Source: Arthrobacter sp. Leaf337 (lineage in GTDB: Bacteria > Actinomycetota > Actinomycetes > Actinomycetales > Micrococcaceae). Taken from it: a stretch of 64,000 nt of DNA. Both the position numbers and the translations under genes were made by a program. Below the pieces are notes generated by a model that saw only the letters and a program-made list of their open reading frames with translations, did no database searches and was not told where the DNA came from. The stretch lies in the NCBI RefSeq assembly GCF_001423745.1, contig NZ_LMPC01000023.1, positions 124,295-188,294 of the forward strand. The letters are read 5' to 3'. How positions within the stretch are numbered: position 1 is the stretch's first letter; each line of letters begins with the position of its first letter. Positions 7,611-31,343 of this stretch are shown one piece after another.

Positions 7611-9623
7611 ATGACCAACCCCCTCCTGACTCCCAGTCCTTTGCCGTTTGGGCTCCCCCCGTTTGCCGAGATCGACGAGGCCGACTATTCCGAAGCGGTC
7701 CGGTCCGGCCTGGCGGAACACCTGGCTGAAATTCAGGCCATTGTGGACAACACCGAACCTGCCGCCTTCGAGAACACGGTCCTGGCGATGGAACGCTCCG
7801 GGCAGCTCCTCCAGCGCGCCGCCGCTTCGTTTTTCACCCTGGTCTCGGCGGATGCCTCGGACGGCATCCGCGCCCTTGAGACCGAGCTGTCCCCGGAGTT
7901 TTCCGCCCATCAGGATGCCGTTTACATGAACCGGCGGCTCTTCGACCGGTTCGCCGCCGTGGACACTGCCGGGCTCGATGATGAATCAGCCAGGCTCGTG
8001 GAGGAGTACCTCAAGGAGTTCCGCCAGTCCGGCATCCAGCTCGATGATTCCGGCCAGGACCGGCTCAGGGCGGTGAACGCGGAGCTGTCCCGGCTGGGCA
8101 CCGAATTCGGGCAGCGCGTCAAGGAAGCCATGAAGACTTCGGCCCTGCTGCTCGACGATGCCGCAGAGCTGGCCGGGCTGCCGGCGGACGACGTCGCCAG
8201 CGCCGCCGAGGCAGCACGCGAGGCTGGTCACGACGGGAAATACCTGCTCACGCTCATCCAGCCGAGCAATCAGCCGGCCATGGCATCCTTGGAAGACCGC
8301 GACGTCCGGCGCCGCCTCTACCAGGCGTCGATCAGCCGCGGAAGCAGCGGCGGCAGCCTCGACGTCCTGGATCTGGTGAAGTCCATGGTTGCCCTCCGCG
8401 CCGAGAAGGCCCGGCTTTTGGGGTTCGCCAACTATGCCGAGCTCACCGTGGACCGGCAGACGGCCCCCGATTTCGCAGCTGTACAGTCCATGATGAACCG
8501 TCTGGCGCCCGCCGCGGTACGGAATGCCGACGCCGAGGCGGCCGCCCTTGCAGAGGTGGCAGGCCATCCGCTCGAGGCCTGGGACTGGGCGTACTATTCC
8601 GCGAAAGTGCGGCGGGAGCGGTACAGCGTGGACGAGCAGGCCCTACGCCCGTACTTCGAACTGGACCGGGTCCTTCATGACGGTGTCTTCTTCGCCGCGA
8701 CTTCCCTCTACGGTGTCACCTTCCACGAGCGGCCCGACCTCAAGGGCTACCACCCCGACGTCCGGGTCTGGGAGGTCCGCAACGAGGACGGCTCCGAACT
8801 GGGCCTCTTCCTGGGCGACTACTATGCACGCGAATCCAAACGCGGCGGCGCCTGGATGAATTCGCTGGTGGATCAGTCCGCGCTGCTGGGTACGAAGCCG
8901 GTGGTGATCAACAACCTGAACATTTCCAAGCCTCCGGCGGGCGAGCCCACGCTCCTGACCCTGGACGAGCTCCGGACCGCGTTCCACGAATTCGGCCATG
9001 CCCTGCATGGACTGTTTTCCAACGTGACCTTCCCCCGGTTCTCCGGTACCGCCGTTCCACGCGATTTTGTGGAATACCCCTCGCAGGTCAACGAAATGTG
9101 GATCATGTGGCCTGAGGTGCTGGCCAATTATGCCCGCCACCATGTGACCGGCGAGCCCCTTGCCCAGGACATCGTGGACAAGCTCAACGAATCGCAGCTG
9201 TGGGGCGAAGGGTTCGGCACCACGGAGTACCTGGGCGCGGCGCTCCTCGACCTCGCCTGGCATGTGCTGGACGAATCCGGGGTCCCGGCGGATGTCCTGG
9301 CGTTCGAAGCCAAGGCCCTCGCGGCGGCCGGGGTGGCCCACAACCTGATTCCGCCGCGGTACCGGACCGGCTATTTCCAGCACATCTTCGCCGGCGACGG
9401 CTATGCCGCAGGCTATTACTCCTACATCTGGAGCGAGGTGCTGGATGCGGACACGGTGGAGTGGTTCAAGGAAAACGGCGGACTCAGCCGGGCCAACGGC
9501 GACTTCTTCCGCAATGAACTGCTCTCCCGCGGCAACAGCCGCGAACCGCTGGACTCGTTCCGCTCCTTCCGCGGCCGCGACGCGAGGCTGGAGCCGCTGC
9601 TGAAGCGCCGCGGGCTTGAGTAA
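7611..9623 (+). CDS. M3 family zinc peptidase (oligopeptidase A / dipeptidyl carboxypeptidase type)
   Basis: A 670-residue cytoplasmic metallopeptidase that degrades short peptides. The zinc site HEFGH is at residues 459-463 within FHEFGHALHGLF. The downstream Glu ligand region is DFVEYPSQVNEMW, and the C-terminal signature GYAAGYYSYIWSEVLDAD is the usual substrate-binding Tyr/Gly loop. Length and order agree with Dcp/PrlC family members. No signal peptide. It is divergent from capA with a 73-base gap. Confidence 0.95.
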   Translation: MTNPLLTPSPLPFGLPPFAEIDEADYSEAVRSGLAEHLAEIQAIVDNTEPAAFENTVLAMERSGQLLQRAAASFFTLVSADASDGIRALETELSPEFSAHQDAVYMNRRLFDRFAAVDTAGLDDESARLVEEYLKEFRQSGIQLDDSGQDRLRAVNAELSRLGTEFGQRVKEAMKTSALLLDDAAELAGLPADDVASAAEAAREAGHDGKYLLTLIQPSNQPAMASLEDRDVRRRLYQASISRGSSGGSLDVLDLVKSMVALRAEKARLLGFANYAELTVDRQTAPDFAAVQSMMNRLAPAAVRNADAEAAALAEVAGHPLEAWDWAYYSAKVRRERYSVDEQALRPYFELDRVLHDGVFFAATSLYGVTFHERPDLKGYHPDVRVWEVRNEDGSELGLFLGDYYARESKRGGAWMNSLVDQSALLGTKPVVINNLNISKPPAGEPTLLTLDELRTAFHEFGHALHGLFSNVTFPRFSGTAVPRDFVEYPSQVNEMWIMWPEVLANYARHHVTGEPLAQDIVDKLNESQLWGEGFGTTEYLGAALLDLAWHVLDESGVPADVLAFEAKALAAAGVAHNLIPPRYRTGYFQHIFAGDGYAAGYYSYIWSEVLDADTVEWFKENGGLSRANGDFFRNELLSRGNSREPLDSFRSFRGRDARLEPLLKRRGLE

Positions 9624-23459: not shown

Positions 23460-24446
23460 ATGACTCCTCTCACGAACGAAAAACGCAAAGGCGGCCGCAT
23501 CCGGCGCGCCGTCGTCGCCGGGGCCGTCGCCCTCACCCTTTCCGCCGGCGGAGCCACCGCCTGGGCGCTGGACCGCTTTGTAGTCCAGCACGTGGAAATC
23601 TCGGAGGTCTCCGCCTACCAGGCAAGCCAGAGCAGTACCGCGGCCGACACCACGACCGAATCCACCGCCGAATCCAGCGGCACCACCGCCGCGGTCACCA
23701 CCGACACGTCCTATGTTTCCGGCAGTTCCAACATCAACATCTCCACGGTGACCACCGGCAGCGGCGACAGCACCGTCACGTACTACGTTGCCGACGTCGT
23801 ACTGGACGACGCCACCACCCTCCAGTCGGCGTTCGCCAATGACAGCTTCGGCGAAAACATCACCGAGACCACGTCCGCCATCGCCGAGGCCAACAACGCC
23901 GTGTTTGCCATCAACGGCGACTACTACGGCTTCCGCTACACCGGCATCGTGATCCGCAACGGCGTGGTGTTCCGCGACGAGGGCGCCCGGCAGGGCCTGG
24001 CCTTCTACCGGGACGGAACCGTCAAGGTCTACGACGAGACCGCCACCACCGCTGAGCAACTGCTGGCCGACGGGGTCTGGAACACCCTCTCCTTCGGCCC
24101 GTCCCTGTTGAACGACGGCGAGGTCGCCGCGGGCATCGAGGACATGGAAGTGGACACCAACTTCGGCAACCACTCCATCCAGGGCGAACAGCCCCGCACC
24201 GCCGTCGGCATCATCGACGAAAACCACCTCGTCTTCGTCGTGGTGGACGGCCGGAGCCCCGGCTACAGCGCCGGCGTGACCATGACCGGGCTGGCGGAAA
24301 TCATGCAGGGCCTCGGCGCCACCACCGCGTACAACATCGACGGCGGCGGGTCCTCCACCATGTACTTCAACGGGGAACTGGTCAACAACCCCCTGGGCGA
24401 GCACAAGGAACGCGGCACCTCCGACATCCTCTACATCGCGCAGTAG
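23460..24446 (+). CDS. Phosphodiester glycosidase (NAGPA-like), membrane-anchored or secreted
   Basis: A 328-residue protein with a basic N-terminus and one hydrophobic helix (AVVAGAVALTLSAGGATAWAL), then a Ser/Thr-rich linker and a NAGPA/DUF2233 domain. The domain has AIAEANNAVFAINGDYYGF, GIVIRNGVVFRDEG, PRTAVGIIDENHLVFVVVDG, GVTMTGLAEIMQGLGA and NIDGGGSSTMYFNG. Relatives remove a sugar from a sugar-1-phosphate diester (the uncovering enzyme of lysosomal sorting is the best-known case). An ATG 36 bases upstream is possible. It is the first gene of the five-gene block 23460-28741, nine bases before the glycosyltransferase. Confidence 0.88.
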   Translation: MTPLTNEKRKGGRIRRAVVAGAVALTLSAGGATAWALDRFVVQHVEISEVSAYQASQSSTAADTTTESTAESSGTTAAVTTDTSYVSGSSNINISTVTTGSGDSTVTYYVADVVLDDATTLQSAFANDSFGENITETTSAIAEANNAVFAINGDYYGFRYTGIVIRNGVVFRDEGARQGLAFYRDGTVKVYDETATTAEQLLADGVWNTLSFGPSLLNDGEVAAGIEDMEVDTNFGNHSIQGEQPRTAVGIIDENHLVFVVVDGRSPGYSAGVTMTGLAEIMQGLGATTAYNIDGGGSSTMYFNGELVNNPLGEHKERGTSDILYIAQ

Positions 24447-24455
24447 GAGACCGAC

Positions 24456-25550
24456 ATGATCATCCTGATCCCGGCTTACGAGCCTGACCGGCAGCTGCCC
24501 GACCTGATCCGCTCCATCCGAGACGCGGAACCATGGGCCACGGTGGTGGTGGTTGATGACGGCAGCGGTCCCGCCTACAAGGACGTGTTCGACGGCGTCA
24601 AGGCACTCGGGTGCCACGTCGTCGGCTACGCCACCAACCGGGGAAAGGGCTTCGCGCTCAAGACCGGCTTCGGTTTCATCGCCGACCACCTCCCGGGCCG
24701 CAACGTGGTCTGCGCCGACAGCGACGGCCAGCACACCATCGTGGACATCCTCAAGGTGGCTGCCGCGGTGAAACCCGGCTCACCGGCCATGGTCCTGGGC
24801 ACTCGAAGCTTTACAGGCAACGTCCCGGCCCGCAGCAGGTTCGGCAACAACGCCACCCGGCTGCTGTTCACCCTCGCCACCGGCCAAAGGATTTCCGACA
24901 CCCAGACGGGCCTCCGCGGCTACCCCGCCTCGATGCTCCCCTGGCTCCGGTCCGTCCACGGCGAGCGCTACGAGTACGAGCTGAACCTGCTGCTGGAAGC
25001 CAAACAAGCGGGGTACGCGATCAACAGCGTGGACATCGCGACCGTGTACCTGGAGCACAACGCGGGTTCGCACTTCAGGCCGGTGGCGGACTCCGCCCGG
25101 ATCTATGCCCCGCTGCTGAAGTTCCTGGCGTCCTCCTTCACGGCGTTCCTGGTGGACACCCTGATGTTCCTCATCCTCACCGCGGCCACCGACTCCCTGC
25201 TCCTGGCGGTGGTTGGCGCCCGGGCCGTAAGTTCGGCCGTCAACTTCGCCGTCAACCGTCGGTTGGTGTTCCGGCGCGGCCGCGAGAAGCCCGCCGCCCG
25301 GACCGGCGTCCGCTACTTCGCCCTGGTCGCGGTGCTGCTGGCCGCCAACTTCGGGTTGATCGCCGCCTTTGAAGCGCTGTCCCTGGCCATGCTTCCCGCC
25401 AAGATCCTTGCCGAAATCGCCCTGCTGGCCACCAGCTACGCGGTGCAGCAGCGGTTCCTCTTTGCCGGGAAGAATGCCGGGAAGGTCAACGGCAAAGCCG
25501 CGGCGGAAACAGCAGATGAACTCCCGGCAAACACTCATATTCCGGCCTAG
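24456..25550 (+). CDS. Bifunctional family 2 glycosyltransferase / GtrA-like membrane protein
   Basis: A fusion of 364 residues. Residues 1-215 are a GT2 domain of the polyprenyl-phosphate sugar synthase type: LIPAYEPDRQLPDLI, VVVDDGSG, TNRGKGFALKTGF, the metal site ADSDGQH and SDTQTGLRGYP. From about residue 220 a GtrA domain has four membrane helices (SFTAFLVDTLMFLIL, ...VNFAVNRRLVFRRG..., ...SYAVQQRFLFAGK). GtrA proteins are thought to flip polyprenyl-phosphate sugars. One polypeptide may thus make and flip a lipid-linked sugar for extracellular transfer. Second gene of the block. Confidence 0.9.
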   Translation: MIILIPAYEPDRQLPDLIRSIRDAEPWATVVVVDDGSGPAYKDVFDGVKALGCHVVGYATNRGKGFALKTGFGFIADHLPGRNVVCADSDGQHTIVDILKVAAAVKPGSPAMVLGTRSFTGNVPARSRFGNNATRLLFTLATGQRISDTQTGLRGYPASMLPWLRSVHGERYEYELNLLLEAKQAGYAINSVDIATVYLEHNAGSHFRPVADSARIYAPLLKFLASSFTAFLVDTLMFLILTAATDSLLLAVVGARAVSSAVNFAVNRRLVFRRGREKPAARTGVRYFALVAVLLAANFGLIAAFEALSLAMLPAKILAEIALLATSYAVQQRFLFAGKNAGKVNGKAAAETADELPANTHIPA

Positions 25551-25625
25551 GTTCCGTCACAGCACCTGCACAGTTTGGGCGTGGATCGTGAAAACCAGTC
25601 CACCAATCAGATTCCGGAGAATCCC

Positions 25626-26297
25626 ATGACACCCCTCATCCTCATCGCCGCCGACCTGGCCGCCATCAGCATCCTGACCTTCGCCCTGTACCTCCGCCGG
25701 CACCGGCGCCGCGACCTGGTGGTGTCCTACCTCGGCATGAATGTCGGCGTCATGGCAGTTGCGGCCGCACTCTCCGGCTCGGCCGCCGGCGTGGGCCTGG
25801 GCCTCGGCCTCTTCGGTGTCCTGTCCATCATCCGGCTGCGCTCCACCGAACTGGCGCAGCACGAGGTGGCCTACTATTTCTCAGCACTGGCCCTGGGCCT
25901 GATCGCCGGCCTCGGCATCGACCCCGTGTGGCTGCCACTGGCGCTGATGGCCATGATCCTGCTGGTGATGTTCGTGGGAGACCATTCCCGCGTCCTGCCC
26001 GCGTACCGCCACCAGATAGTGATCCTGGACCGCGCCATCGCCGTTGACGAGGAACTCTACGCCCGGCTCGAAGATGTGGTCCACGGCAAGGTCCACTCGG
26101 CCACCGTGCAGGAGCTGGACCTCGTCAACGACAAGACGGTTGTTGATGTTCGCTACGCCTACGTCCCTGCGACCTTTCCGGCCGCAACCTTCACCGCAGC
26201 GTACCCGGAGGCCATTCCCGGAACCGTCCCGCAGCTGTCCGACCCCGTCTCCGCTCCGGCTTCCGCTCCCGTCCATGCCTCGGCCGGTGCGGCATGA
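25626..26297 (+). CDS. DUF4956 membrane protein
   Basis: A 223-residue protein with four membrane helices in the first ~120 residues, including the highly conserved Gly-rich stretch GLGLGLFGVLSIIRLRS followed by ELAQHEVAYYFSALALGLIAGL. A cytoplasmic C-terminal domain follows (VILDRAIAVDEELYARLED), ending in a Pro/Ala-rich tail. DUF4956 proteins of unknown function are recurrently found beside VTC-domain polymerases. The last codons overlap the VTC gene by four bases, so the two are translationally coupled. I infer a membrane partner or channel for the polymerase. The ATG at 25626 is chosen over an in-frame start 51 bases upstream. Confidence 0.88.
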   Translation: MTPLILIAADLAAISILTFALYLRRHRRRDLVVSYLGMNVGVMAVAAALSGSAAGVGLGLGLFGVLSIIRLRSTELAQHEVAYYFSALALGLIAGLGIDPVWLPLALMAMILLVMFVGDHSRVLPAYRHQIVILDRAIAVDEELYARLEDVVHGKVHSATVQELDLVNDKTVVDVRYAYVPATFPAATFTAAYPEAIPGTVPQLSDPVSAPASAPVHASAGAA

Positions 26298-27082
26298 CCG
26301 CCCCGGCGCAGGCCGGCGTCCTGGACTCCCTCCGCCTGCTCCCGTCTATCGGGCTGGACCAGCTGAACGCGGAGGCCGCACTGCAGACCCGCGTGGACCG
26401 GAAGTACGTGGTCCCCGAGGCACAGGCACAGGAGCTGCTGACCACATTCGACGCCGATGTCCGGGTCCTTGAGATGGACGGCTGCCGCTGCTTCGCGTAC
26501 GACTCCGTCTATTTCGACTCGGCCGGGCTGGACAGTTACCTCCTGGCCGCCTACGGCCGCCGACGCCGCTACAAGGTCCGCACCAGGACCTATGTGGACA
26601 GCGCCACCAGCTTCCTGGAAGTCAAGACGGAAGGCGCCCGCGAGGCCACCGTCAAGGAACGCATCCCCTACGAACTCACCGACCGCGCCCGGCTGACGGC
26701 AGAGGGCCTGGACTACGTCCGCGAGACCCTCACCACCGCGGTGGGCTGCGTTCCGGACAGCCCCCTGGGCCCGGTGCTGGAAACGCGCTACCAGCGCACC
26801 ACCCTGTACCTGCCGGACTCCGGCAGCCGGGCAACCATCGACACGGACGTCACCTGGCAGCGGCCCGGGGAGCAGGCCTGGGTCCTGGATGGCGCCGTGA
26901 TTTTGGAGACCAAGTCCGGGTCGACGGCGGGTCCGCTGGACCGGCACCTCTGGGCCCACGGCGTCCGGCCCTCCAGGATCTCCAAATTCGCCACAGGAAT
27001 GGCGGCCCTCTGCCCCGAGCTGCCGGCCAACCGCTGGAACCGCACGCTACGCCGGACTCTGGCCCTCCGCCCCGCCGCCTGA
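26294..27082 (+). CDS. VTC-domain polyphosphate polymerase-like protein
   Basis: A 262-residue single-domain protein of the triphosphate-tunnel fold used by yeast Vtc4 to make polyphosphate from ATP. Visible tunnel residues are RVDRKYVV near the N-terminus, the basic strand YGRRRRYKVRTRTYVD, FLEVKTEG, VKERIPYEL, YQRTTLYL, ILETKSGS and the terminal ISKFATGMAAL. There is no SPX domain and no membrane helix, so membrane attachment probably comes from the coupled DUF4956 protein. The product could be polyphosphate or another phosphopolymer. Confidence 0.9.
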   Translation: MTAPAQAGVLDSLRLLPSIGLDQLNAEAALQTRVDRKYVVPEAQAQELLTTFDADVRVLEMDGCRCFAYDSVYFDSAGLDSYLLAAYGRRRRYKVRTRTYVDSATSFLEVKTEGAREATVKERIPYELTDRARLTAEGLDYVRETLTTAVGCVPDSPLGPVLETRYQRTTLYLPDSGSRATIDTDVTWQRPGEQAWVLDGAVILETKSGSTAGPLDRHLWAHGVRPSRISKFATGMAALCPELPANRWNRTLRRTLALRPAA

Positions 27083-27157
27083 ACCCTTTCCCGCGCAGGC
27101 TTCCCCCGCCGGCCTCCCCCCGCTTCACGCACATACTTCACCGAAGGAACACACACC

Positions 27158-28741
27158 ATGAAAAGCTTCCGCACTTACCTCTCCGTCACCGCCCTGGCCC
27201 TTGCCGTGGGCCTGGCTGGCTGCTCCGCGGCCGGCACCACCTCCACCGGAACCTCGATCACCGGCGCCACTTCCAACTCAGCAACGTCAGGGTCGTCCGG
27301 AACGGCCGAGGCCGTCTCCCTGGATACCCTCTCGGCGGACACCCACTACGACGCCGACGACCTCACCTGGGACGCCGCGTCCGAAGTAGCCGTGACCCTG
27401 GCGGACGGCGCCAGCGCTGTTACATCAGATTCGTCCTCCGCGGTAAAGGTCGACGGCGATACCGTCACCATCAGCGCTGCCGGAACCTACCGCCTGAGCG
27501 GTTCGCTGACGGACGGGCAGGTGGTGGTTGCCGCCGGTGAAGAGGACGTAGTGCGCATCATCCTGGACGGCGCGGACGTGACCAGCTCCACCGGATCCCC
27601 GTTTGTGGTGCAAAGCGCCAACGAAGCAATCGTCTTCCTGGCAGAGGGCACCTCCAACACCCTGGCCGACGCCGCCAGCTACACCGACCAGGGCGACGAT
27701 GCACCCAACGCCGCGCTGTACTCCATGGCCGACCTCACCATCGCCGGCAGCGGCTCACTGTCCGTGGACGGCAACTACAACGACGGCATCTCCGCCAAGG
27801 ACGGCCTGGTGCTGGCCGCGGGCAATGTGACCGTGGACGCCAAGGACGACGGGATCGTGGGCAAGGACTACGCGGTCCTCCTCGACGGCGCCTACCAGGT
27901 GACGGCCGGCGACGACGGCTTCAAGTCGGACAACGAAGAGGACGAAGGCCGCGGCTGGGTCCTCATCAACGGTGGAACCCTCAACGTCAGTGCCGGCGAC
28001 GACGGCATCAAGGCCTTCAACACGCTCTCCATCGCCGCCGGCACCGCCACGGTGAAAGAGTCCGAAGAAGGCCTGGAAGCCCAGCACATCGTGCTCTCGG
28101 GCGGTACCGCCAGCGTCACCTCCAACGACGACGGCGTCAACGCTTCCGGGGGCAGCACGGGTACCACCTCGCAGGGCGGAATGGGCGGCGGCATGGGTGG
28201 CGGCGGCGGAGAAATGGCCGCAGGAGACTACACCGTGGAAATCAGCGGCGGCTCACTCACCATCAATTCGCAGGGTGACGGCCTGGACTCCAACGGCAGC
28301 GCCACCATCACCGGCGGCACGGTCGTGGTCAACGGCCCCACCAACGATGGCAACGGCGCACTGGACGTCAACGGCGAACTCGTGGTCAACGGCGGAACGG
28401 TGGCGGCCGCGGGAAGCTCCGGCATGGCTGTCACCCCGGGGACGTCCTCGGCGCAGTCCGGCGTCCAGCTCACCTTCGGCTCGGCCCTTCCGGCCGGCAC
28501 CACCATCCAACTGGCGGACTCCAGCGGCGCAGTCGTGGGGACGTTCGTGACGTCCAAGCAGGCAGCTTCGCTGGTCTACTCCTCCGCAGCCATCACGGCC
28601 GGCGAGGAATACACGGTGTACACCGGCGGGACCGCCAAGGTCACTGCCGGCCTCGGAGAAGGAACACTTGACGGTGCCCAGGAGCAAGGCACCGTCACTG
28701 CCGGCGAATACACCGCCGCACGCGGTCCCGGCGGCCGCTAA
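27158..28741 (+). CDS. Carbohydrate-binding beta-helix lipoprotein (Cthe_2159-like)
   Basis: A 527-residue lipoprotein with signal LALAVGLAGCSAAG (lipobox Cys), a Ser/Thr-rich linker, and a right-handed beta-helix marked by recurring Asp-Gly turns: NDGISAKDGL, DDGIVGKDY, DDGFKSDNEED, DDGIKAFNTL, EEGLEAQHI, DDGVNASGG and GDGLDSNGSA. Such repeats in Cthe_2159-type proteins bind calcium and acidic or plant polysaccharides. A Gly/Met-rich loop (GGMGGGMGGGGGEMA) interrupts the helix near residue 345. Last gene of the block; it probably displays or captures the polymer at the cell surface. Confidence 0.85.
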   Translation: MKSFRTYLSVTALALAVGLAGCSAAGTTSTGTSITGATSNSATSGSSGTAEAVSLDTLSADTHYDADDLTWDAASEVAVTLADGASAVTSDSSSAVKVDGDTVTISAAGTYRLSGSLTDGQVVVAAGEEDVVRIILDGADVTSSTGSPFVVQSANEAIVFLAEGTSNTLADAASYTDQGDDAPNAALYSMADLTIAGSGSLSVDGNYNDGISAKDGLVLAAGNVTVDAKDDGIVGKDYAVLLDGAYQVTAGDDGFKSDNEEDEGRGWVLINGGTLNVSAGDDGIKAFNTLSIAAGTATVKESEEGLEAQHIVLSGGTASVTSNDDGVNASGGSTGTTSQGGMGGGMGGGGGEMAAGDYTVEISGGSLTINSQGDGLDSNGSATITGGTVVVNGPTNDGNGALDVNGELVVNGGTVAAAGSSGMAVTPGTSSAQSGVQLTFGSALPAGTTIQLADSSGAVVGTFVTSKQAASLVYSSAAITAGEEYTVYTGGTAKVTAGLGEGTLDGAQEQGTVTAGEYTAARGPGGR

Positions 28742-28753
28742 AGGCAATACGCA

Positions 28754-28787
28754 GGCGGGGGACGACGGCGCGGCCGCGTCCCCCGCC
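28754..28787 (+). terminator. Hairpin ending the 23460-28741 gene block
   Basis: A perfect 11-base stem, GGCGGGGGACG (28754-28764) with CGTCCCCCGCC (28777-28787) and a 12-base loop, 13 bases after the last stop codon. No T-run follows, so it may act as a transcript-end stabiliser. Confidence 0.5.
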
Positions 28788-28917
28788 GTCATGCCTGGCC
28801 GCTTTCGCCGGCCGCCCTTCCGTGGCGTCGTTCCGTGCGGGCCTTCTGTGCTCGGCACCATGTACGGACTAGACTCAGGAGTCGGTTCTCCTTACTACGC
28901 TCGGAAGAGGTATTCCC

Positions 28918-29651: not shown

Positions 29652-31343
29652 ATGCACCGCGATTGGATCCTGAAAGCCGTTCCGGGCATCCAACTGGCCC
29701 GGACATACCAGCTGCCCTGGCTCAAGTCCGATCTTGCCGCGGGAGCAGCCCTTAGCGCGGCGCTGATACCCGCCGGGATGGCCTACGCCGAAGCGGCAGG
29801 GCTGCCCGCGGTCACGGGGCTGTACGCGTCGGTGGTGCCCATGCTGTTTTACGCGGTTTTCGGGCCTGCCCGCGTGATCATCGTGGGACCTGATTCATCG
29901 CTGGCACCCATGATCGCCGCCGCACTGCTCCCGCTCGCCGGACGGGATCCGGCCCATGCCGTGGCGCTCGCCGGCGTCCTGGCAATCCTGATCGGAATCT
30001 TCCTCGTCGCCGGCCGGATCTTCAGGCTGGGCTTCATCACCGGGCTGCTGTCCAAGCCGATCCGGGTGGGCTACCTCAATGGCATCGCCCTCGCCATCAT
30101 GGTCAGCCAACTGCCCAGGCTGCTCGGGATCACAGTCTCCGGCGACACGCTGCCGGCGAAGGCGACGGAGACCGTCGAAGCCGTCCTGCGTGGAGCCGCC
30201 AATCCCGTGGCGCTGCTGTTCGGGGTCGCCACAGTGGCCATCATCGTCGCCGGCCGTTTCCTTCCCTGGAAGGTTCCGGGCGTACTGCTGGCTGTGGCAG
30301 CCTCCATTGCAGCGGCCGCCGCCCTGGACCTCAAGGACGCCATGCCGATGGTCGGAGCCCTCCCGCCCGGCCTGCCGGCACCGGCGCTTGCAGGCATCAC
30401 CATGCACGATGTTGTCGGGCTAATCGGGCCGGCGGCCGGCATCGCCCTGATCGCATTTGCTGATACGTCCACTTTGTCCAAAAGCCTCGCCGGACGACGC
30501 GGCATCCACACGAGCGGCAACCAGGAAATGGGGGCACTGGGGATCGCCAACGTGGCCAGCGGAATGCTCGGCGGCTTTCCGGTCTGCGGCAGCTCTTCCC
30601 GGACGCCGATCGCGCTCGACGCCGGAGCCCGCACGCCCTTCAGCGGCATCGTCGCCGCGCTCCTGGTGGTGGTCTTTATGGTGGCGGCGCCCGAGGTGAC
30701 GGCATTCCTCCCCACCACCACGCTGGCCGCCGTCGTCATCGTGGCTGCAGCCTCGCTGGTCGACTTCAAGACCATGCTCCGGCTGGTCCGGATGAGCCGG
30801 ATGGAAACGGCCCTCCTCATTGCCACGTTCCTCGGGGTCGCGTTCGTCGGCGTGCTGCAGGGCATCGTCATTGCCATCGGGCTGTCGCTCATCGCGTTCG
30901 TCCGGCGGGCGTGGGATCCGTACCGCACTGAGCTTGCCAGCCTGGAGGACGTCCCTGGCTACCACGACCTCAGCCGGCACCCGGAGGGCCAGCGTGTCCC
31001 GGGCCTCGTGATCGCCCGCTTTGACGCCCCGCTCTTCTTCGCCAACGGTGCCGTGTTTGCGGAGCACATCCGCCATCTTGTTGCGAACGCCCCGGGACCG
31101 GTCAAATGGGTCATTGTGGCATCGGAGGCCATCACGGACCTGGACACCACCGCCTTGGACGACCTCGTGGAACTCGACGACGAACTGGCCGGCCAGGGCA
31201 TCAGCCTGGTCTTCGCCGAGTTGAAGGGCCCCGTCAAGGACCGCCTGCTCAAGTTCGGGGTCAGCAGCAGGTTCGGCCCGGACCACTTCTTCCCCACGGT
31301 CAACAACGCGGTGCGGACCTACAAGCGGACGTTCGGAATCTAG
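29652..31343 (+). CDS. SulP-family inorganic anion transporter with STAS domain
   Basis: A 563-residue membrane protein with about 10-14 helices, including the SulP signature region LIPAGMAYAEAAGLPAVTGLYAS and FGPARVIIVGPDSSLAPMI. A C-terminal cytoplasmic STAS domain covers about residues 440-560 (VIARFDAPLFFANGAVFAEH, VIVASEAITDLDTTALDDL). Substrate may be sulfate, bicarbonate or another anion; no cysteine-synthesis genes or carbonic anhydrase lie nearby to decide. Start ATG at 29652 after GGGAGG. Its end is five bases from the convergent DUF5671-like gene. Confidence 0.93.
   Translation: MHRDWILKAVPGIQLARTYQLPWLKSDLAAGAALSAALIPAGMAYAEAAGLPAVTGLYASVVPMLFYAVFGPARVIIVGPDSSLAPMIAAALLPLAGRDPAHAVALAGVLAILIGIFLVAGRIFRLGFITGLLSKPIRVGYLNGIALAIMVSQLPRLLGITVSGDTLPAKATETVEAVLRGAANPVALLFGVATVAIIVAGRFLPWKVPGVLLAVAASIAAAAALDLKDAMPMVGALPPGLPAPALAGITMHDVVGLIGPAAGIALIAFADTSTLSKSLAGRRGIHTSGNQEMGALGIANVASGMLGGFPVCGSSSRTPIALDAGARTPFSGIVAALLVVVFMVAAPEVTAFLPTTTLAAVVIVAAASLVDFKTMLRLVRMSRMETALLIATFLGVAFVGVLQGIVIAIGLSLIAFVRRAWDPYRTELASLEDVPGYHDLSRHPEGQRVPGLVIARFDAPLFFANGAVFAEHIRHLVANAPGPVKWVIVASEAITDLDTTALDDLVELDDELAGQGISLVFAELKGPVKDRLLKFGVSSRFGPDHFFPTVNNAVRTYKRTFGI

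Follow-up and report, generated by a model that had tools for sequence, protein, structure and literature searches.

Why should a predicted polyphosphate polymerase be encoded together with a membrane protein, a lipoprotein and two sugar-related genes? The question is raised by a stretch of Arthrobacter sp. Leaf337 DNA, called the window below (64,000 nucleotides, NZ_LMPC01000023.1 positions 124,295-188,294, from a genome of 5.2 Mb in 31 contigs; coordinates are window positions). We observe that the five genes are a real and conserved envelope cassette of modular make-up, at the base of which is a pair already known though uncharacterized, DUF4956 and VTC. The reading that we favor, and to which we give an even chance, is that this pair couples polyphosphate synthesis to the membrane and exports the product to a swappable surface receiver. 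Open reading frames and Pfam matches bear out the layout described in an earlier note on this DNA, with five consecutive plus-strand genes spaced by 9, 75, -4 and 75 bases, the 4-base overlap being the ATGA shared by DUF4956 and VTC:

23460..24446, plus strand: NAGPA-type phosphodiester glycosidase, 328 amino acids (Pfam PF09992 NAGPA, E = 2.2e-39, 135.8 bits against a cut-off of 25)
24456..25550, plus strand: GT2 glycosyltransferase with a GtrA/DPMS membrane domain, 364 amino acids (Pfam GtrA_DPMS_TM, E = 1.1e-11; Glycos_transf_2, E = 7.6e-08)
25626..26297, plus strand: DUF4956 membrane protein, MgtC-like (Pfam, E = 9.6e-57)
26294..27082, plus strand: VTC triphosphate-tunnel domain, predicted polyphosphate polymerase, 262 amino acids (Pfam, E = 5.4e-26)
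27158..28741, plus strand: Cthe_2159-type beta-helix protein with a lipoprotein leader (LAGC lipobox; Pfam, E = 7.8e-75, 252 bits)
28753..28788, plus strand: strong GC-rich hairpin after the Cthe_2159 gene, without a T run (folding against shuffles)

With respect to the core of the cassette, DUF4956 and VTC prove to be nearly inseparable, which supports their pairing in the earlier note. Among 396 genomes of the phylum searched at E = 0.001, VTC was found in 42 and DUF4956 in 44, and all 42 VTC genomes have a DUF4956 match (Fisher, 1e-54), which in one of them (G420) falls below the curated cut-off. DUF4956 without VTC was seen in 2 of 354 genomes, with one match over the curated cut-off (G500) and one below it (G470), and of the 14 named control genomes only Bacteroides ihuae, Corynebacterium glutamicum and Methanosarcina acetivorans match, each with both families. 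The two genes are adjacent in 134 of 136 distinct loci (counted after removal of 24 repeats, with 56 located via DUF4956 and 80 via VTC), the exceptions being a locus cut at a contig end (L135) and one that holds VTC and a CotH kinase gene (L096). Their order changed only once on a quick tree of 60 rows, which carries a long-branch warning, and no DUF4956 match was found in a phage collection at E = 1e-5.

The VTC protein appears, from its modeled structure, to be built as a polymerase, with polyphosphate synthesis from ATP as its predicted activity. The model (predicted local distance difference test score, pLDDT, 91.4) has no transmembrane helix and superposes on yeast Vtc4 (3g3r_A) with Z = 16.1 over 211 residues at 3.3 A and 26% identity; Foldseek pairs it with 3g3r_B at E = 5.1e-12, and the VTC profile picks out Vtc4 among PDB sequences (E = 1.3e-5). 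Conservation of the tunnel residues, named in the earlier note as a check, is found at seven Vtc4 positions (K200, R264, R266, K281, K294, R361 and R373, corresponding to K37, R96, R98, K111, K121, R168 and R179), all on columns invariant in 55 sequences, and we take K200, K281, K294, R361 and R373 to line the active site. R264 and R266 are, with E426, the residues changed to inactivate Vtc4 (PMC9911596; this and the other articles cited by PMC number are represented here by excerpts), and E205 is the likely equivalent of E426, being invariant although the alignment did not place it.

The likeness to the yeast VTC complex (Vtc4/Vtc3/Vtc1) thus extends to a tunnel polymerase fold, active-site residues and a membrane partner, whereas the window VTC has no SPX domain and its membrane partner is MgtC-like rather than DUF202/Vtc1. 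A Pfam scan of the 262-residue protein gave VTC only and no SPX, and over the cut-off the two core proteins show only VTC and only DUF4956, with no DUF202/Vtc1-type domain in either; the genome has two DUF202 genes at other places. A vectorial logic like that of the yeast complex is likely. Furthermore, a PP_kinase (PPK1-type) gene is present elsewhere in the window genome, so that VTC would not be needed for an ordinary internal store and is probably an extra, dedicated activity.

DUF4956 is, on the evidence of profile comparisons, a distant relative of MgtC. Its AlphaFold model shows five helices followed by a C-terminal beta-alpha-beta-beta domain. In a profile-profile comparison based on 34 of 35 rows (L203 dropped, the spurious-looking L223 retained), DUF4956 matched MgtC over 150 columns (Prob 95.9, E = 5.8e-9). 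With eight divergent members alone, the match covered 202 columns spanning the transmembrane helices and the C-terminal domain (Prob 98.2, E = 4.8e-14; the subgroup comparisons retained rows L245 and L253). The divergent group matches the window-type DUF4956 group at Prob 97.2, and the MgtC link of the window-type proteins runs through the divergent members. As controls, 11 other families reached at most Prob 5, 60 column shuffles at most 0.8 and the reversed profile 0.7. Compared with MgtC/SapB (PF02308), the match thus covers both the transmembrane helices and the C-terminal domain, but the window DUF4956 has no Pfam MgtC match (PF02308 is not listed for it at E up to 1, nor matched in its own genome) and has VTC as a constant neighbor. 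A kinship of DUF4956 to Vtc1/DUF202 was considered and rejected (hhalign Prob 0.5), and a search of PDB sequences with the DUF4956 profile returned two designed proteins only.

Across 32 diverse DUF4956 proteins only two columns are invariant, the arginines R70 and R72 where the third helix ends (counted from the ATG; R72 and R74 in alignment numbering, which starts at 25620 and runs two residues higher). Under the positive-inside rule these would face the cytosol; in the yeast VTC complex, basic residues line the channel entry (PMC9911596). For a streptococcal protein, SIR_1592, MgtC and ACT domains have already been published (PMC12345266).

The third component is where the loci differ. Within 7 kb of the core pair, and with CotH, Cthe_2159 and other neighbor profiles built here from the loci themselves, we find CotH alone in 22, Cthe_2159 alone in 14, both in one (L111) and neither in three of 40 phylum loci, drawn by VTC from 37 of the 42 VTC genomes (mutual exclusion, Fisher, 3.9e-7). 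The tree requires at least seven switches between CotH and Cthe_2159 when rows with both or neither are left out, and its well-supported branches alone force five changes for CotH and six for Cthe_2159. Among the control genomes, CotH matches in C. glutamicum, M. acetivorans and Bacillus subtilis, and Cthe_2159 only in B. ihuae. The earlier note had remarked that the CotH-like kinase is missing from the window locus; this holds for the whole genome, in which PF08757 has no match, yet the kinase is not merely absent, since Cthe_2159 stands in its place.

Both alternative partners look exported in most loci, as predicted from hydrophobic segments and lipoboxes. A lipobox beside a hydrophobic stretch is present in 61 of 62 distinct Cthe_2159 relatives; a hydrophobic segment is found in 49 of 57 CotH proteins, with a lipobox beside it in 14, and such a segment occurs anywhere in only 2 of 156 VTC proteins. 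The window beta-helix matches Cthe_2159 itself (PDB 4peu, E = 2.8e-38), a member of a family that Pfam describes as carbohydrate-binding, and differs from it by its lipobox and its DUF4956-VTC neighbors. We also observe that the stretch GTSITGA follows the lipobox both in the window Cthe_2159 protein (27158-28741) and in a CotH lipoprotein of another locus (L162, 12128-13627), as if the receiver had been swapped behind a shared leader. In a separate case, an uninterrupted minus-strand open reading frame of 790 codons (L093, 7313-9682; an internal start is possible) combines VTC and CotH with a lipobox-like hydrophobic segment; in such an arrangement the polymerase would lie on one side of a membrane and the kinase on the other.

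Within the genus, Pfam matches in 198 genomes number 65 for VTC, 67 for DUF4956 (65 over the cut-off), 69 for Cthe_2159 (68 over the cut-off) and 107 for NAGPA, of which the window genome has a second match in a longer reading frame. The co-occurrence of the core with the other three genes in relatives, also named in the earlier note as a check, is pronounced: among the best-scoring 40 of the 65 VTC loci, with the window and G004 excluded, 38 carry all five genes in identical order and strand, and two (L032, L053) have DUF4956-VTC-Cthe_2159 only. This conserved order makes the five-gene grouping more than chance. For the remaining 24 VTC genomes, where coordinates were compared by eye and the GT2-GtrA gene was checked in G082 and G138 only, 20 have NAGPA, DUF4956 and VTC at fitting places, with Cthe_2159 in all of them except one at a contig end (G019) and with two (G093, G155) spanning contig ends. 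The cassette is apparently decayed or partial in the other four (G053, G061, G082, G138). Eight of nine partial cases belong to the genus and consist of cassette pieces, some with internal deletions, and the ninth, from another family (G500), has DUF4956 alone on a 6.2-kb contig. The closest named relative is Arthrobacter sp. UNC362MFTsu5.1 (93% identity for DUF4956, 92% for VTC). Flanks differ among the loci, with the thioesterase and endonuclease-like genes that flank the window cassette present in only 4 of 40, indicating that the cassette is accessory and sits at several genomic places; it seems mostly to be kept or lost as a whole.

The NAGPA and GT2-GtrA genes are a clade-limited add-on. 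Among the loci examined, the pair occurs only in Micrococcaceae, in a single further genome from the order (L106) and in a Propionibacteriaceae metagenome-assembled genome (L175), where the five genes stand in a different order; L111 has an NAGPA gene on the other strand and no GT2-GtrA. The pair accounts for six state changes on the tree. It is also borne by L162, a record titled Sporosarcina that carries the Arthrobacter cassette, and because this locus clusters with Arthrobacter on the tree the record is likely a mislabeled or contaminated assembly. The NAGPA protein aligns with human NAGPA (6pkg) and with the bacterial 6ozd and 3ohg, and is probably exported, as read from an N-terminal hydrophobic signal or anchor; of 58 distinct relatives, no more than 28 pass the cut for such a stretch. 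For GT2-GtrA, the nearest PDB chains are ArnC-type undecaprenyl-phosphate transferases (best E = 5.4e-5, GT2 part only), a DSDGQH motif can be read in the sequence, and the NCBIfam model PpgS scores 53.8 bits, far under its 370-bit cut-off; in an NCBIfam scan of the five proteins, NAGPA and VTC had no match and the other three matched only below cut-off. The protein is a probable polyprenyl-phosphate-sugar synthase and, to judge by its ArnC-type relatives, looks more like such an enzyme than like a flippase that also adds sugar, as suggested earlier. The interpretation of the five genes as one system is thus partly supported. They do stand together in the genus but are not a single ancient system: DUF4956-VTC is the core, CotH or Cthe_2159 supplies the third part, and NAGPA-GT2GtrA is variable.

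How, then, might the cassette work? We infer that VTC, a tunnel enzyme that has no membrane anchor, would make polyphosphate from ATP in the cytosol and would dock on DUF4956, the MgtC-like membrane protein encoded with the 4-base overlap, which may lead the chain outward. Outside, the lipoprotein would receive or hold the polyanion. In most of the lineages examined this third partner is a CotH kinase that looks exported; here it is Cthe_2159, a beta-helix that binds polysaccharide. For relatives of Arthrobacter, NAGPA and GT2-GtrA could tie the product to envelope glycans: GT2-GtrA would make a polyprenyl-phosphate sugar that is used outside, and NAGPA would trim sugar-1-phosphodiester bonds. 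We favor this export reading because VTC and DUF4956 hardly occur apart, because VTC shows the Vtc4 fold and active-site columns, because the PPK1-type gene would already serve an ordinary internal store, because the third partner looks exported, because the L093 reading frame combines VTC and CotH with a lipobox-like segment, and because CotH and Cthe_2159 mostly stand in for one another, with repeated switches. Two further reasons are that yeast VTC couples synthesis with translocation (PMC9911596) and that phosphate-related genes adjoin the pair in the alphaproteobacterial plasmid loci examined. In four alphaproteobacterial plasmid loci (L267, L269, L270, L271), DUF4956-VTC is followed by a gene annotated as a phytase-like esterase, in one of them with an inorganic phosphate transporter gene in between (five of 15 plasmid records with VTC were examined); a Deinococcus plasmid record carries CotH-VTC-DUF4956.

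Several observations weigh against this reading. The confidence of the DUF4956 model is middling (pLDDT 67.5), a Foldseek search of this model against the PDB returned nothing at E = 0.001 or better, and the 24 DUF4956 proteins of the window's own type, taken alone, match MgtC weakly (Prob 11). Since DUF4956 shows no DUF202/Vtc1 relation, its comparison with the Vtc1 channel is by analogy only, and we know of no established transport activity for MgtC. VTC locus L096 has no adjoining DUF4956. With respect to the third partner, the three phylum loci with neither family near are L103 and, at contig ends, L077 and L085; of the 22 CotH-alone loci, 6 have CotH on the opposite strand, and 8 of 57 CotH proteins have no hydrophobic segment. 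Furthermore, both partners are present in 5 of 80 loci of the named set, all Arthrobacter-like (L139, L145, L149, L157, L162), so the exclusion is not absolute. In Streptococcus intermedius, all four accessory mutants of the Pel locus still aggregate and make Pel, and the excerpted text reports no effect for the mutant of the polymerase gene SIR_1593 (PMC12345266), which speaks against a simple model with the polymer central to aggregation. In the literature we found no polymer measurement for this cassette.

The alternative that survives best, which we regard as possible but rather unlikely, is an exopolysaccharide module that regulates, phosphorylates or anchors a surface glycan, with VTC making or using short phosphate chains and DUF4956 acting as a regulator with an ACT-like sensor and not as an exporter. 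Accessory CotH, polyphosphate polymerase and DUF4956 genes are already known beside Pel genes in the Gram-positive Pel loci of streptococci, clostridia and bifidobacteria (PMC7112168, PMC12345266). Deletion of SIR_1592, which from the two articles together we infer to encode the DUF4956 protein in the Pel locus of S. intermedius, lowers aggregation and raises Pel, and deletion of SIR_1594 (CotH) lowers both (PMC12345266). The carbohydrate-binding description of Cthe_2159 fits such a module, as does locus L076, where genes for a large protein that has no Pfam match, a HEAT protein and a chitin-synthase-like GT2 come after CotH, an order resembling Clostridium perfringens NELoc-2 (PMC2879425). 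NELoc-2 shares with the window VTC genes that are each beside a membrane protein gene, but has CotH, HEAT and chitin-synthase-like GT2 where the window has Cthe_2159, NAGPA and GT2-GtrA; its membrane protein gene is annotated as tubulin/FtsZ (PMC2879425), and our guess is that it encodes DUF4956.

The neighborhoods argue in the other direction. Among 102 same-strand neighbors in 59 loci that do not belong to the five-gene group of the window (at most three per locus, within 3.5 kb and of at least 130 amino acids; some loci gave none), no polysaccharide family among the 25 of 108 families listed matches more than two members, whereas regulators (two-component, RsgI-like) match three or four, and the core seems often to stand alone. 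The listed families include no Pel family, so adjacency to Pel seems at most rare, in contrast to the excerpted text of PMC12345266, which reports no such synteny outside Pel loci. A pure regulator would also leave the pairing with a polymerase unexplained. The window shares with the Gram-positive Pel accessory genes the VTC-DUF4956 pair and a neighboring gene for a third partner that is predicted to be exported, but differs in having Cthe_2159, NAGPA and GT2-GtrA and no CotH match in the genome; none of the seven flanking window proteins scanned is a Pel protein, farther flanks not being covered. We found no description of the five-gene Arthrobacter form or of the CotH/Cthe_2159 exchange in a partial literature survey from which subscription journals were mostly absent; one article (PMC11677781) contains both terms CotH kinase and polyphosphate polymerase.

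A doubtful alternative is intracellular phosphate or metal homeostasis, with VTC-DUF4956 as a membrane-bound polyphosphate store or buffer on the cytosolic side under MgtC-like regulation of phosphate or Mg2+. The MgtC-like character of DUF4956, the phytase-like and phosphate transporter neighbors in alphaproteobacteria and the Salmonella MgtC-PhoR link cited in PMC12345266 are consistent with it; however, a third partner predicted to be exported in most loci would be superfluous for an internal store, and the genome already has its PPK1-type gene. That the genes are chance neighbors or merely move together without joint function is very improbable, since the patchy occurrence (VTC in 65 of 198 genus genomes), the differing flanks and the state changes of NAGPA-GT2GtrA are set against the order and strand kept in 38 of 40 genus loci, the same five genes together, reordered, in Propionibacteriaceae, and partial sets in eight genus genomes that are pieces of the cassette.

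A wider version of the export reading, which we hold to be unlikely as it stands, would make VTC-DUF4956 a general bacterial and archaeal polyphosphate pusher that provides a high-energy phosphate source outside the cell, where there is no ATP, with CotH using it as phosphoryl donor, Cthe_2159 as a non-kinase receiver and DUF4956, and by kinship MgtC, as path or gate. Exported kinases need a phosphate donor where ATP is absent, and MgtC has, to our knowledge, no agreed biochemical job. Both questions become testable with a polymerase that is nearly always found with an MgtC-like protein and, in 37 of 40 phylum loci, with CotH or Cthe_2159; suitable hosts are harmless soil bacteria and C. glutamicum, whose genome matches VTC, DUF4956 and CotH.

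Downstream of the cassette, the hairpin that the earlier note had placed after the last gene is present: the region 28742-28812 folds at -44.7 kcal/mol, with 2 of 200 shuffles folding equally well (z = -2.78). It has no T run and does not appear in the output of a terminator scan of the window, which gave three terminator-like sites against a shuffle mean of 3.2, i.e., no excess, and no promoter-like sites. Farther on, a SulP-type sulfate permease gene (29652-31343, Pfam) follows, and is near the cassette in 2 of 40 genus loci.

Among the relatives, three loci (L062, L063 and L068, the last identical with L123) have an opposite-strand gene between GT2-GtrA and DUF4956; in L123, where it lies at 8076-8912, it has an SLT lytic transglycosylase domain. 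Histidine-kinase-like genes lie just upstream of the cassette in L148, L161 and L162, confirmed by Pfam for L161 only, and in L161 a response regulator, recognized by its sequence, stands alongside. In L154, an Arthrobacter locus that has CotH but lacks Cthe_2159, genes for a sodium:sulfate-type symporter and an LssY_C protein are found upstream, and the genes at that place in L156 are similar in size.

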